Below, in pieces: positions 12,263-17,260 of a DNA stretch of 54,057 nt. The notes under the pieces are model-generated. The model saw only the letters and a list, made by a program, of their open reading frames with translations, did no database searches and was not told where the DNA came from. The stretch spans positions 1-54,057 of the forward strand of contig JAQWFN010000058.1 of assembly GCA_029238785.1 (NCBI GenBank), read 5' to 3'. The translations under genes and the position numbers were made by a program. This DNA is from Flavobacteriales bacterium. GTDB lineage: Bacteria; Bacteroidota; Bacteroidia; Flavobacteriales_D; Sanyastnellaceae. The number at the start of each line of letters is the position of its first letter. Positions within the stretch are counted from its first letter, which is position 1.

Positions 12263-13611
12263 GTTGGCCAAAATTTGACTTGGGAGACTTTCCCCAACAA
12301 ACCAAAGAAAGCTGGAAGAAAAAGGTGATTGCCGATCTAAAAGGAAAACCTTACGAAGACCTTTCTTGGGAGGTGGATAAAGACTTGATCCTCGATTGCA
12401 TGTACACAGATGATGAAGGACTTGAGATAATCCGTATTCCAGCTAGAGCCATGCAGAGCGATACGAACGAGTGGTTAATTCATCAGGATTTTAAAGGTCT
12501 AGGATCAAAAATGAATGCTGAAATCCTAGAGGCTTTAAAAAATGGAGTGAACTCAATTGGTTTTACCTTGAGCGACCTTCATGAAAACCCAAAGGCGCTC
12601 GATGGCGTGTATCAAAACATGTTACGACTTCGTCTAGATTGCAGCATTTCTGATTTCAATAAGTCTAGTCTAAAAGACCAGATTAAAACGCTCGATTTTA
12701 GTGCAGATTATAGTGCATTAGTACTTGATGTGTTTACTGAAAAAGAGGTGTCTAAGAGTTTGATTGTGAATGCGATAAGTGAAATTAAAAACATTTATTC
12801 TTGGCGGCTAAAACTGAATGTTTCGGTGTTCACAGAAGCTGGTTTTGGTCCGGTAGATGCCCTAGCACTTGCTGCTTTAAAGTTGACTGATTTACTTGAT
12901 TTAGCCGCTGAAGCGGGAGTGGATGAAAAAACGCTTTATGAGCATTTAGAAGTGGAGCTTTGTATGGGAAGAAGCTATTTAGCAGACGTCGGACTAATTC
13001 GTTCGATGAGGGCAATGCTGAATAAAGTACTGAGAATGTGGAGCGGCGATATTAAGGCTGAAATCCCTGTTTTTATTCAAGCCAATAGCGCTCGTTTCAA
13101 CTTGAGTCGTCTAGATGCCTACAACGGTCTTTTGAGAGGAACAATCGCGGGAATGTCGGCAACAATCGGTGGTGCCGATGCAGTGATGATTCGTCCTTTC
13201 GATGAGCTATGGGCGAACAGCGCTGAGGCTCTGAGGTATGCGAGAAATACACAGCATCTCCTTAAAGAAGAAAGCATGCTCGACGCGGTGCAAGACCCTA
13301 TGAAAGGGGCACTAATCGTTGAGAAGCTTTGCGCTAAGCTGCTTGAAGCGGGGTGGAATAAATTTCAAAAATGGAGCGATGAAGGGACATACCTAGAGCT
13401 TCTGAGTCAAGGGGTAATTGAAAATGCAGCGGAAAAAGCGGCTGCACATCTTCAAAAACAACTCGATGAGCAGTCACTCATTTTGCTTGGAGTAAATAAA
13501 TATAGCGCTCCTCACAGCTCGCTGCCTGAAATGAAAGCACTTGAAGCAGCAGCTGAAATCAAAGCCTTTCGCTGGGCTGAGAAACATGAATCTAAATCAG
13601 AAAAGGCATGA
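12259..13611 (+). CDS. mutA: Methylmalonyl-CoA mutase, small subunit
   Basis: The 450-residue protein is the non-catalytic partner of the heterodimeric mutase that interconverts (R)-methylmalonyl-CoA and succinyl-CoA. It has the mutase barrel (for example [44 protein letters not shown], residues about 275-320) but lacks the full cobalamin domain. At 450 residues it is shorter than classical MutA (about 620), the short form usual in Bacteroidota. The start is certain because an in-frame TGA lies just upstream (12256-12258). It overlaps mutB by 4 bp (ATGA), so the two are translationally coupled. Confidence 0.93.
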
Positions 13612-15743
13612 ATAAGCTGAAAAACCAAGATTGGAGAGTCGGACTAGATTTGCTTGAGCCTTCAGGGAAAAGCGCTAAAACGAGTCTTACAACGGCTGAA
13701 GATATAGTACTGAAGTCAAGTTACGAACGTTCTGATGCTGAGGTACTTATAGGCAAATCTTATGTAGCAGGAATTGCGCCTTTCCTGCGCGGACCATACA
13801 GTACGATGTATGCTTCTCGCGCTTGGACTGTTCGTCAATACGCTGGTTTTAGTACTGCCAAGGAGTCCAACGCCTTCTATCGCAGAAATTTGGCTGCCGG
13901 ACAAAAAGGTTTGAGTGTGGCTTTCGACTTGGCCACGCACAGGGGGTATGATAGTGACCACCCAAGAGTAGTTGGCGATGTAGGTAAAGCAGGTGTAGCC
14001 ATTGATAGTGTGGAAGATATGAAACTGCTCTTTGATGAAATCCCCCTCGATAGAATGTCGGTTTCAATGACCATGAACGGGGCGGTGGTGCCCATCATGG
14101 CTTTCTACATTGTTGCTGCAGAAGAGCAAGGAGTGGAGAAGCACTTGTTGAGCGGAACCATTCAAAACGATATTCTTAAGGAGTTTATGGTGAGGAATAC
14201 CTACATCTATCCGCCTTTGCCATCAATGAAAATCATTTCAGACATCTTCGAATACACTTCGCAAAAGATGCCTAAATTCAATTCAATCAGTATTTCAGGC
14301 TATCACATGCAAGAGGCGGGAGCCACGGCTGATATTGAGCTGGCTTATACTTTGGCTGATGGCTTCGAGTACCTGAAAGCGGGTGTGGCTGCGGGCTTAG
14401 ATATTGATGATTTTGCACCTCGATTGAGTTTTTTCTGGGCTATCGGGATGAACCACAGCATGGAAATTGCTAAGATGAGAGCGGCTCGTTTGCTTTGGGC
14501 GAAATTGGTGAAGACTTTCAATCCAAAAAATGAGAAATCACTGGCCCTAAGAACGCATTGCCAAACATCGGGCTGGAGTTTAACTGAGCAAGATCCTTTC
14601 AATAACGTGGCCCGAACTTGCATCGAAGCTATGGGCGCTGTAAGTGGCGGAACCCAGTCGCTTCACACGAATGCTCTGGATGAGGCAATAGCGCTGCCTA
14701 CCGACTTCTCAGCAAGAATTGCTCGAAATACGCAGCTCTTCATTCAAGAAGAAACCGGACTTTGCAACACTGTTGATCCTTGGGGAGGTTCTTATTTTAT
14801 GGAGAGTCTGACAGAAAGCATTGCTGAAAAAGCCTGGAAACTCATGGAAGAGGTGGAAGAACTTGGTGGTATGGCGAAGGCGATAGAAACCGGTATTCCA
14901 AAAATGCGCATCGAAGAGGCTGCAGCTAAAAAACAAGCTCGTATTGATTCAGGAAGAGATGTTATTGTTGGGGTGAACCAATACACCACGGAGGATGAAA
15001 CAGATATTGAGATCTTAGAAGTAGATAACACTGCTGTTAGAAATGAGCAAGTAGAACGTTTGAAAGAGCTGAGATCTGATCGAAATACGGCAAAAGTTGA
15101 AGCGGCCTTGGAGGCTTTAGCGGCGGCAGCAGCGTCAGGACAAGGAAATTTGCTTGAATTAGCAGTTAATTGCGCCAGAGAACGCGCTACTCTAGGCGAG
15201 ATTTCTGATGCTATGGAAAGAAGCTTCGGTAGGTTTAAGGCGAAAATTAGAAGTATTTCAGGAGTTTATTCTGCGGAAGCTATGGACGATAAAGATTTTG
15301 AAAAAGCACGACAATTGGCCGATAATTTTGCCGAAAAAGCGGGGAGAAGACCACGGATCATGGTGGCGAAGATGGGACAAGATGGTCATGACAGAGGTGC
15401 TAAGGTAATTGCGACAAGTTTTGCCGACCTCGGCTTTGATGTTGATATTGGTCCGCTTTTCCAAACGCCTGAAGAAGCAGCAAAACAAGCGGTAGAAAAT
15501 GATGTGCATGTGCTTGGTGTTTCTTCTTTGGCTGCCGGACACAAAACGCTTATTCCTCAAGTGATGGAAGCACTAGAAAAGGAAGGAAGAGACGATATCC
15601 TTGTTGTTGCAGGAGGGGTGATTCCTAAACAAGACTATGATTTCCTTTATGAAAGGGGAGTTGTGGGGGTGTTCGGACCAGGAACAAAGATTGCTCGGGC
15701 GGCTTCTGATATTCTTAATTTATTGCTGAGCGTTTACGAATAA
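13608..15743 (+). CDS. mutB: Methylmalonyl-CoA mutase, large (catalytic, B12-binding) subunit
   Basis: The 711-residue protein has the substrate barrel ([30 protein letters not shown] near residue 60; [16 protein letters not shown] near 105) and a C-terminal cobalamin domain with DGHDRG (D592, H594 as lower axial ligand), then [16 protein letters not shown] and VVAGGVIP. It carries out the adenosylcobalamin radical rearrangement between methylmalonyl-CoA and succinyl-CoA, linking propionate, odd-chain and branched-chain catabolism to the TCA cycle. MeaB and epimerase genes are not in the window. A strong terminator lies 52 nt past the stop, inside the convergent XRE gene. Confidence 0.97.
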
Positions 15744-15744
15744 A

Positions 15745-16209
15745 CTACGATTGTTCGAAGGACTCAAAAGAGCCGTCGTCATAAAAACAAATTACCCTCA
15801 CAAGCTTCTTGTGGGGGTTTTTCTTTACTGATGGGCTTGGTTTGTATGAAGCTGAATCTTCATAATCTGAAACAGACATCTCGTGGAATTCAGGAGAGCC
15901 ATTTTTTGAAAAACCTTCCGTTACATTTGTAACACCTTCATGAACTTGGCCTTGTTCCTTGCTCGTTACATTTGTAATATTAGTTTCTCTGGTATCAATT
16001 TCTATATCACCTTTACCATGTAAAAGCCAGTTGGTAGATAGCTTAGGGAAGGCTTCTGTAAGCTTGCTGATAAATGAAACACTGGGCTTGTTTCTCCCAT
16101 TGATGATATGCGAAATGGCCGATCGCTGAACGCCTGTGAGCTCTGCGAGGTCTTTTGGACTGATGTTGTAATGAACAATGATCTGGGCAATGCGGTCTGA
16201 AAATGCCAT
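15745..16209 (-). CDS. XRE-family helix-turn-helix regulator, probably autoregulated
   Basis: The 154-residue protein has an N-terminal Cro/CI-type HTH (residues about 5-62: KDLAELTGVQRSAISHIINGRNKPSVSFISKL) followed by LSTNWLLHGKGDIE, a common tail of these domains. A low-complexity linker contains two TNVT tetrapeptides, and the end VRVICFYDDGSFESFEQS is a short conserved-looking module. Orphan regulators of this shape are common in Flavobacteriales; targets are unknown. The promoter lies in an array of four TTACAAATGTAA-like palindromes, and two perfect copies inside the gene encode the TNVT peptides (see the repeat entries). No phage genes are nearby. It converges with mutB with 1 bp between the stops. 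Confidence 0.85.
   Translation of the reverse strand: MAFSDRIAQIIVHYNISPKDLAELTGVQRSAISHIINGRNKPSVSFISKLTEAFPKLSTNWLLHGKGDIEIDTRETNITNVTSKEQGQVHEGVTNVTEGFSKNGSPEFHEMSVSDYEDSASYKPSPSVKKNPHKKLVRVICFYDDGSFESFEQS
15795..15824 (+). terminator. mutB terminator embedded in the opposite-strand XRE coding sequence
   Basis: CCCTCACAAG (15795-15804) pairs with CTTGTGGGGG (15808-15817) in a 10-bp stem with one U-G wobble and a 3-nt loop, then TTTTTC. It is oriented for mutB and lies wholly within the 3' coding region of the minus-strand XRE gene. Confidence 0.85.
15921..15977. repeat. Two intragenic copies of the TTACAAATGTAA palindrome
   Basis: Perfect copies (TTACATTTGTAA on the plus strand) at 15921-15932 and 15966-15977 have centres 45 bp apart, about twice the 22-bp phase of the upstream array. 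On the coding strand they encode parts of VTNVT and ITNVT. Confidence 0.75.
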
Positions 16210-16221
16210 GTCAAATAATTT

Positions 16222-16300
16222 TTACAAATGTAACGATTAAATGTTACAAAAGTAAATAGCATGATGTTACAAATGTGTCGAATGTTGATTACAGATGTAA
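16222..16300. promoter_or_regulatory. Phased operator array upstream of the XRE gene
   Basis: Four copies of a near-palindrome lie at 16222-16233 (TTACAAATGTAA), 16244-16255 (TTACAAAAGTAA), 16267-16278 (TTACAAATGTGT) and 16289-16300 (TTACAGATGTAA, within the 16-nt GATTACA-GA-TGTAATC). Centres are 22, 23 and 22 bp apart, so all face the same side of the helix. The first copy contains the -7 box of the XRE gene. The last reaches the end of fmt. Binding by the XRE protein is inference. Confidence 0.75.
16225..16232 (-). promoter_or_regulatory. -7 promoter box, TACATTTG, for the XRE gene, inside an operator repeat
   Basis: Perfect TAnnTTTG match on the minus strand, 15 nt before the ATG at 16209, lying within the first palindrome of the array. 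The second palindrome also contains a perfect match (TACTTTTG, 16247-16254). Confidence 0.6.
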
Positions 16301-17260
16301 TCACTCGAAAGCTATGGCTTCAAATGTTCTTCGTTGATCTTCTTGTAAACCGTTAATCAGGTCTCTAGATGGCATGCGCTTTTTTCCTTCAAGTTGAATC
16401 TCATCAACCTGAAACCAATAATCACTACAGGCTATTTGGATGCTCCCTTCTTGAACTCGAAGCTTTCCTGGTTTGGAATTGATTGAAGGTGCTGCTGTGG
16501 GCCTGCCTAAGTGGATTTTAAAGTGTTTTTCTCCGTCGGTAGTCCATGCGCTGGGAAAGGGATTTAGTCCCCGAACAAAGTTGTGTACTTCTTGAGCTGT
16601 TTTACTCCAATTGATTTGAGTGTTCTCTTTGAAAAGTTTAGGAGCGTGACTTTGTCCTTCATTCTTGATCAATTCATCTTGATCAATGGCTTCATATTCT
16701 CCGCTTTCAATCATACGGAGTGTTTGAACGATGGTCTCGGCACCAAGCTTCATCATGCGGTCATGTAATGAACCTGTTGTTTCGTTTGCTCCAATTTGAA
16801 TGGCTTCGCGAAGCAAAACAGCACCTGTATCGATTTCTTTTTGGATGAAGAAGGTGCTTACTCCTGTTTCTTTATCGCCATTAATAACGGCCCAATGAAT
16901 TGGAGCGGCCCCACGATAGTTGGGGAGAAGCGAGCCATGAAGGTTAATTGTTCCCAAAGGAGGCATTTGCCAAACAACTTCAGGAAGCATTCGAAAGGCT
17001 ACCACAACAAACAAATCTGCTTGAAGCGCTTGAAGTTCTTCCAAAAAGCCCTCATCGCGCAATTTGAGGGGTTGTAAGACCTTTAATCCTTGTGATTCAG
17101 CGTAGGTCTTGACCGGACTCATTCTCACCTTTTGCCCGCGTCCTGATGGTTTGTCAGCGACGGTTACCACGCCTACAATTTCGTGTTCTGATTCGTGAAT
17201 GGCTTGCAGACCAGCAACGGCGAAGTCTGGAGTTCCCATGTAAACAATTCGTAAGCTCAT
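16301..17260 (-). CDS. fmt: Methionyl-tRNA formyltransferase
   Basis: The 319-residue enzyme formylates initiator Met-tRNA using 10-formyl-tetrahydrofolate. Seen are the N-terminal LRIVYMGTPDFAVAGL, the SGRG.K..MSPVK loop, the catalytic INLHGSLLPNYRGAAPIHWAVINGD (Asn/His pair near residue 105) and ETGVSTFFIQKEIDTGAVLL. The C-terminal OB-like tRNA-binding domain follows (residues about 205-315). It is the last gene of a trmH-MATE-fmt group: its ATG overlaps the MATE stop by 4 bp. Its stop codon touches the last palindrome of the XRE operator array. Confidence 0.96.
   Translation of the reverse strand: MSLRIVYMGTPDFAVAGLQAIHESEHEIVGVVTVADKPSGRGQKVRMSPVKTYAESQGLKVLQPLKLRDEGFLEELQALQADLFVVVAFRMLPEVVWQMPPLGTINLHGSLLPNYRGAAPIHWAVINGDKETGVSTFFIQKEIDTGAVLLREAIQIGANETTGSLHDRMMKLGAETIVQTLRMIESGEYEAIDQDELIKNEGQSHAPKLFKENTQINWSKTAQEVHNFVRGLNPFPSAWTTDGEKHFKIHLGRPTAAPSINSKPGKLRVQEGSIQIACSDYWFQVDEIQLEGKKRMPSRDLINGLQEDQRRTFEAIAFE

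Follow-up and report, generated by a model that had tools for sequence, protein, structure and literature searches.

Palindromic sites at the promoter and within the coding sequence of a putative XRE-family autoregulator gene in Flavobacteriales

The locus, its regulator and its palindromes

In this study, a stretch of 54,057 nucleotides from a Flavobacteriales bacterium (assembly GCA_029238785.1, contig JAQWFN010000058.1), hereafter the window, was investigated around a small regulator gene lying on the reverse strand between fmt and a convergent gene, which reads as a putative methylmalonyl-CoA mutase-like gene. The genes and the coding segments of the regulator are listed below.

13608..15743, plus strand: convergent context gene, its stop abutting the XRE stop (ORF; synteny)
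15745..16209, minus strand: putative XRE-family autoregulator gene, 154 aa (ORF; Pfam HTH_3, E 1e-10)
15754..15798, minus strand: codons of the conserved C-terminal beta-hairpin, residues 138-152 (AlphaFold2 strands 138-142 and 148-152)
15820..15996, minus strand: linker codons, residues ~72-130 (pLDDT 53-64 by block, low confidence)
16018..16203, minus strand: HTH domain codons, residues 3-64 (AlphaFold2 pLDDT 96-98 by block; sequence-profile matches to SinR and other XRE HTHs)
16301..17260, minus strand: methionyl-tRNA formyltransferase gene fmt, upstream, in co-directional context (Pfam Formyl_trans_N and Formyl_trans_C)

The protein is an XRE regulator of the HTH_3 class, scoring 41.9 bits against PF01381 with a curated cut-off of 23. 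It is also a member of an XRE family of the Bacteroidota whose architecture, as observed in alignments of 15 and 73 members and in the model, consists of an HTH domain, a variable linker and a C-terminal hairpin of the RIVxFYxDGTFxxY type, with D145 and F148 at least 90% conserved across the 73 sequences. The AlphaFold2 model comprises a confident HTH (3-64), a low-confidence linker, presumably disordered over residues ~72-130, and a confident hairpin (138-152). Profile matches to solved structures were confined to the HTH, with SinR and DdrO among them, and a Foldseek search of the model returned nothing at E 0.001 or better, the best matches including C.AhdI, 434 Cro, DdrO and SinR, with the HTH of the 434 repressor among the weaker-than-threshold matches too. 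Among the named regulators of NCBIfam, RstR (29.2 bits against 80), PuuR (25.1 against 211) and HigA (20.7 against 47.7) all fell below their curated cut-offs, and no S24 or LexA-like C-terminal domain was matched in Pfam at E 0.01, the C-terminus being modelled as the hairpin. The titles and abstract openings of the literature on the motif and on similar systems, with few subscription journals among them, hold no description of this XRE family.

The order of fmt, the XRE gene and the convergent gene was found in all ten orthologous loci of the window's family, with fmt 57-223 bp upstream of the XRE gene and the stop of the convergent gene falling between -22 and +33 bp relative to that of the XRE gene. 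This synteny argues for a chromosomal gene, and a prophage origin, for which only 10 phage records matched at <60% identity, was rejected. A dihydroorotate dehydrogenase-like gene (putative, by reading), differing from the window's neighbour, lies downstream of the XRE gene in several other loci, being the next gene in L045, L068 and L082 and nearby in L035, L069 and L080.

The preliminary description of this DNA had placed four palindromes upstream of the gene at spacings of 22, 23 and 22 bp, and two perfect copies 45 bp apart within its coding sequence. All six were recovered at those centres and coordinates, with two of the upstream four being imperfect.

16289-16300, unstranded: predicted operator at ATG-85, exact, adjoining the fmt stop codon (centre 16294.5)
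16267-16278, unstranded: predicted operator at ATG-63, 2 mismatches (centre 16272.5)
16244-16255, unstranded: predicted operator at ATG-40, 1 mismatch (centre 16249.5); the gene strand has TACTTTTG
16222-16233, unstranded: predicted operator at ATG-18, exact (centre 16227.5); the gene strand has TACATTTG, a TAnnTTTG-type -7 box
15966-15977, unstranded: predicted intragenic operator at +238, exact, encoding ITNVT
15921-15932, unstranded: predicted intragenic operator at +283, exact, encoding VTNVT

The search of the whole genome for TTACANNTGTAA, which that description had proposed, yielded four exact copies in 3.1 Mb, all of them at the XRE gene. By total number this is unremarkable, as two Markov estimates predict 3.5 to 6.4 exact copies genome-wide and the reversed control pattern gave five matches in the same genome. 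The 570-bp gene region, however, holds these four exact sites against about 0.001 expected under a first-order Markov model. When up to two mismatches were allowed, 37 matches were obtained in the whole window against 33.5 expected by chance, and 31 of the 37 lay outside the locus with one or two mismatches. Because this total equals chance, the signal consists in the exact copies and their clustering. An artefact of chance or composition would fit the motif being as common in the window as in shuffles at this loose threshold, but the exact clustering at the gene, together with the roughly 90-fold enrichment of exact copies upstream of 103 related genes described below, leaves that explanation a negligible probability.

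Distribution of the palindrome with the XRE family

For the comparison across genomes, an alignment search of named genomes gave the best 80 of 585 confirmed candidates. A total of 132 loci (L001-L132) was reduced to 103 non-redundant ones by setting aside nine loci without an ORF by the search pattern (L022, L023, L084, L122, L125-L128 and L132) and 20 duplicates or near-duplicates; gene starts were assigned by rule, not evidence. Among the nine, L022 and L023 were read as longer S24-type XREs with zero sites, and L084 also had zero, while each of the remaining six had at least one site of 0-1 mismatch, in L125 directly upstream of the gene. The protein was matched in 23 of 100 genomes, the window's own included (21 after setting aside L022 and L023), and the XRE gene was present in 10 of the 61 searched genomes of the window's family. 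The order-wide search matched 173 of 355 genomes at a loose threshold, which includes many weak HTH-only matches. The XRE gene on one contig titled Lachnospiraceae (L026) is almost the same as the Epilithonimonas hominis gene (L025), which may reflect a binning error.

The palindrome follows this gene closely. Upstream of the 103 genes (300 bp each, 30.9 kb) there are 139 exact copies, or 4.5 per kb, against 24 in 477 kb of flanks of the same loci, or 0.05 per kb. The genes themselves contain 13 exact copies and 17 with one mismatch. One or more upstream sites (-300..+3, at most one mismatch) were present in 95 of the 103 loci and an exact one in 75, the eight loci with zero such sites including one (L130) with only 239 bp of upstream sequence. 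The window's gene carries the TTACAnnTGTAA sites at its own promoter that define membership of the family. The ten genomes of the window's family with an orthologue gave 108 HTH_3 matches; as a control, we considered 29 of them, namely those with locus sequence available and the orthologue removed, and these had no exact site and one site with one mismatch in 37 kb, against 18 exact sites in 13 kb for the ten orthologues. The preliminary description had also proposed that the XRE protein binds these sites and represses itself; the comparison lends this proposal good support, as the array tracks the XRE family across Bacteroidota and is absent in exact form from the 29 other HTH_3 loci.

A search for paired palindromes from DNA alone (final gaps 10-38) gave 20 matches in the 100 genomes, of which 15 were located at the XRE gene of 10 genomes and five elsewhere, the latter being the number that the reversed control also gave. 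With gaps of 4-34, no paired sites were found in the window's genome, because the gap of the intragenic pair is 35 and two of the upstream sites are imperfect. The strict paired pattern was found at the XRE gene in 10 of the 21 carrier genomes and was absent there in 11, and among the genomes of the window's family carrying the gene, a second place with paired sites was not seen. Single exact sites elsewhere were not commoner than control matches whether the gene was present or absent: nine relatives with the gene had 34 exact sites, 14 of them in XRE loci and 20 elsewhere, against 33 control matches; ten relatives without it had 16 against 31; and the window genome had none outside the locus against five. 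A genome-wide depletion of stray sites by the regulator was rejected, since the relatives without the gene show the same ratio. One genome (G074, XRE locus L013) carries 19 exact TTACANNTGTAA copies genome-wide against seven control matches, three of the 19 at the XRE gene; its regulon may be wider, or the motif may have another user there.

The sites could instead belong to a repressor of the BlaI/MecI/CopY type, which recognises TACAnnTGTA. The CopR-CopY operator TACANNTGTA, ascribed also to BlaI and MecI in an excerpt of PMC7253601, has the same core palindrome. That system, however, belongs to another protein family, the window's protein being an HTH_3 protein, and no Penicillinase_R (PF03965) match was present in the window genome, which removes the obvious rival owner of TACAnnTGTA. 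Moreover, the motif tracks the XRE gene across families with differing neighbours, and paired sites elsewhere in the 100 genomes do not exceed the control, so that ownership by such a repressor is highly improbable.

Promoter overlap, spacing and copies within the gene

Within the promoters, TTTG at what we take to be the gap of a -33 element from the -7 box was rare, with eight occurrences among 70 proximal sites. A TT centre, which makes TAnnTTTG (TACATTTG on the gene strand), was found in 40 of the 46 exact sites at -60..-15, and TAnnTTTG is given as the sigma-A -7 consensus of Flavobacterium psychrophilum in an excerpt of PMC9723704; the proximal operator therefore probably coincides with the -7 box. 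The earlier suggestion that the first upstream copy contains the gene's own -7 box thus gains family-wide support, and at this locus the sites at -18 and -40 both fit.

In Flavobacteriaceae loci (e.g. L032, L050 and L064), the start codon itself lies within an operator-like palindrome, TTACA-ATG-GTA-AAC. Among XRE genes starting with Met-Val, TTACA precedes ATG in 20 of 24 and GTA follows in 24 of 24, and this start-codon palindrome keeps to the lattice, at a distance of about 35 bp from the -34 site; part of it may stem from Kozak-like preferences in the phylum, as outlined in an excerpt of PMC6847099. In three loci of Chryseobacterium/Epilithonimonas (L025, L028 and L030), a near-operator TTACAAAAGTAA was observed at +25 in the HTH codons, where it encodes TKV, 32 bp after the -7 site.

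Farther upstream, 53 loci have a divergent neighbour, and 31 of their 57 exact distal copies lie 32-46 nt before the neighbour's ATG (starts by rule); such copies may therefore serve to control the divergent gene, not a loop. In Flavobacteriaceae loci (e.g. L041, L043, L050 and L103), this neighbour is by reading a putative M14-type peptidase, a possible second target.

The spacing of neighbouring sites is regular. Centre distances below 60 bp were mostly 12-13, 22-25, 32-36, 44-48 and 56-59 bp, and in 67 collapsed clusters the local cosine test scored 0.66 at 11.4 bp, where the null reached 0.235 at most, but only -0.16 at 10.5 bp. A helical phase with the latter period is consequently not supported; of the phasing claimed earlier, the regular spacing holds, while 'two helical turns' is only approximate on a lattice of ~11.4 bp. 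Distances of 180-300 bp were also non-random in the full set, with a best period that shifts from 11.8 bp (all loci) to 11.2 bp (clusters), and in the collapsed clusters this long-range phasing was weak (0.337 against a null maximum of 0.235). With long-range phasing weak and its period unstable, looping was kept as no more than a candidate mechanism, and cooperative binding of neighbouring sites was taken as likely.

Copies within the gene (at most one mismatch, +100 or later) occur in 17 of the 103 loci, 27 copies in total; the sole copy in L094 is not of the T-x-V type and may be due to chance. In the window's family, all ten orthologues have linker copies at this threshold, seven of them an exact one. 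On a poorly resolved tree the intragenic trait requires seven changes, and several independent origins are therefore likely.

It is conceivable that TNVT-like peptides are what is selected, for instance as an interaction motif, with the DNA palindrome being incidental. The 27 linker sites share a single frame, and nearly all of them encode T-x-V, with Asn the commonest middle residue (17 of 30). The single frame is nevertheless explained by the other two giving a stop or cysteine, the middle residue varies widely (N, S, D, G, T, Y, P, L and F), and the same DNA motif also stands in the non-coding promoter. The codons are more telling: ACA-NNT-GTA is used for 30 of 45 linker T-x-V (20 of 24 in the window's family and 10 of 21 in the rest, linkers of related genera not being independent samples). 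By comparison, none of the 12 HTH triplets and none of the three C-terminal ones use it, and for flanking ORFs, collected mechanically from both strands, the count is 20 of 279 (Fisher 3e-18 for linkers against flanks). Three of the 12 HTH T-x-V lie within one mismatch of the motif anyway, in Chryseobacterium-type loci. The codon bias implies that the DNA, and not only the peptide, is under selection, and the figure for the window's family is the opposite of TNVT peptides being kept while synonymous codons break the palindrome, the outcome that the preliminary description had named as contrary to its proposal. Selection on the peptide alone is largely contradicted and very unlikely, there is strong support for a DNA-level constraint on operator-like sites in the gene itself, and the demands of DNA binding appear to have influenced part of the XRE protein's sequence.

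Two other uses of the intragenic sites were tried and rejected. As antisense -7 boxes they fail because the AA centre, though commonest, is not constant (GA, TC, CC, AG, AC, GG, TA and CT also occur), and as sites serving the downstream gene they are at odds with that gene being convergent in all ten loci of the window's family.

Regarding how such sites would act, dimers at +238 and +283 may bridge to the promoter array over a loop of ~225-300 bp, a plausible arrangement against which we lean slightly. It would agree with the intragenic site occurring in 6 of 74 loci with an upstream distal site against 11 of 26 without one (Fisher 2e-4; three of the 103 loci omitted for short upstream sequence), a contrast repeated in collapsed clusters (5 of 45 against 10 of 20). 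Seven of the ten loci of the window's family place the first intragenic site 224-225 bp from the proximal one (proximal sites with two mismatches counted), and 222-225 bp is common across all loci. The fixed 214-220 position, however, is also the first free stretch past the HTH domain, the tree-based sign test offers one informative pair on well supported branches, and the long-range phasing is weak as described above. A conserved loop length of 224 bp was set aside as confounded by the fixed length of the HTH and, elsewhere, by divergent promoters. Alternatively, the intragenic sites may form no loop, serving instead as a roadblock or to concentrate repressor locally. Protein bound there, >200 bp away from the promoter, could stop elongation, and the sites do increase local site density; for a roadblock, however, several sites would not be needed, and we regard this explanation as unlikely.

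Proposed autorepression and relation to known systems

Taken together, the XRE gene probably encodes an autorepressor that binds its own promoter array and its own coding sequence. In this model, dimers would bind each palindrome through the HTH, and neighbouring dimers would contact one another cooperatively, with the conserved C-terminal hairpin as the candidate contact. Bound dimers would cover the -7 box and thereby silence transcription of the gene that encodes them. In the ten loci of the window's family, 224-256 bp separate the first intragenic copy from the proximal operator; the intragenic copies would strengthen repression either by a loop to the promoter array or by carrying the repression complex onward into the coding region. 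The linker TxV repeats would then mostly follow from selection on the DNA, read in the one frame free of a stop or cysteine.

Several known systems share parts of this arrangement. PurR of E. coli, a LacI-family repressor with a large regulon, is autoregulated with one operator inside purR, the point of likeness to the present case being an operator placed within the repressor's own coding region. Here, by contrast, the regulator is of the XRE family and the sites form arrays; those in the linker codons determine the peptide, and the search revealed no further place with paired sites in the window's family. The lambda and 434 CI and Cro proteins are autoregulated through tandem palindromic operators over the promoter, with centres ~23-24 bp apart; the likeness extends to the HTH_3-type domain, the tandem palindromes over the promoter and the similar spacing. 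They differ in that no CI or LexA-like C-terminal domain was found in the window's protein, which has a short hairpin after a variable linker, and in that predicted operators here lie inside the gene. SinR of Bacillus subtilis ranks among the nearest cellular regulators of solved structure in the profile comparison (E 6.7e-6) and carries a C-terminal oligomerisation element beside its HTH, but the profile match covers the HTH only, and the C-terminus here is modelled as a beta-hairpin. The lac and gal repressors have auxiliary operators within coding DNA, some hundreds of bp away from the promoter; these lie in target genes, whereas here they are predicted in the repressor's own gene. By these analogies, intragenic operators are already known, including one in a repressor's own gene, that of PurR.

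Beyond these precedents, we tentatively propose, as a possibility that is still doubtful, that a family spread across much of the Bacteroidota repeatedly writes operators into its own coding sequence, in the linker codons of several lineages and at the Flavobacteriaceae start codon, with cis-regulatory DNA dictating protein. In the window's lineage, the regulator's own gene would then be its only strong target, making a self-contained autoregulatory unit in which the occupied gene body is a functional structure. The XRE system as a whole offers a natural case in which selection on DNA binding sets amino acids in the linker of the binding protein itself. Coding and non-coding versions of one operator can be compared across many species, and codon recoding could separate DNA from peptide effects in a single experiment. 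For an uncharacterised XRE regulator, widespread in the order by the loose count given above, the analysis also predicts the operator and the way in which control probably works.
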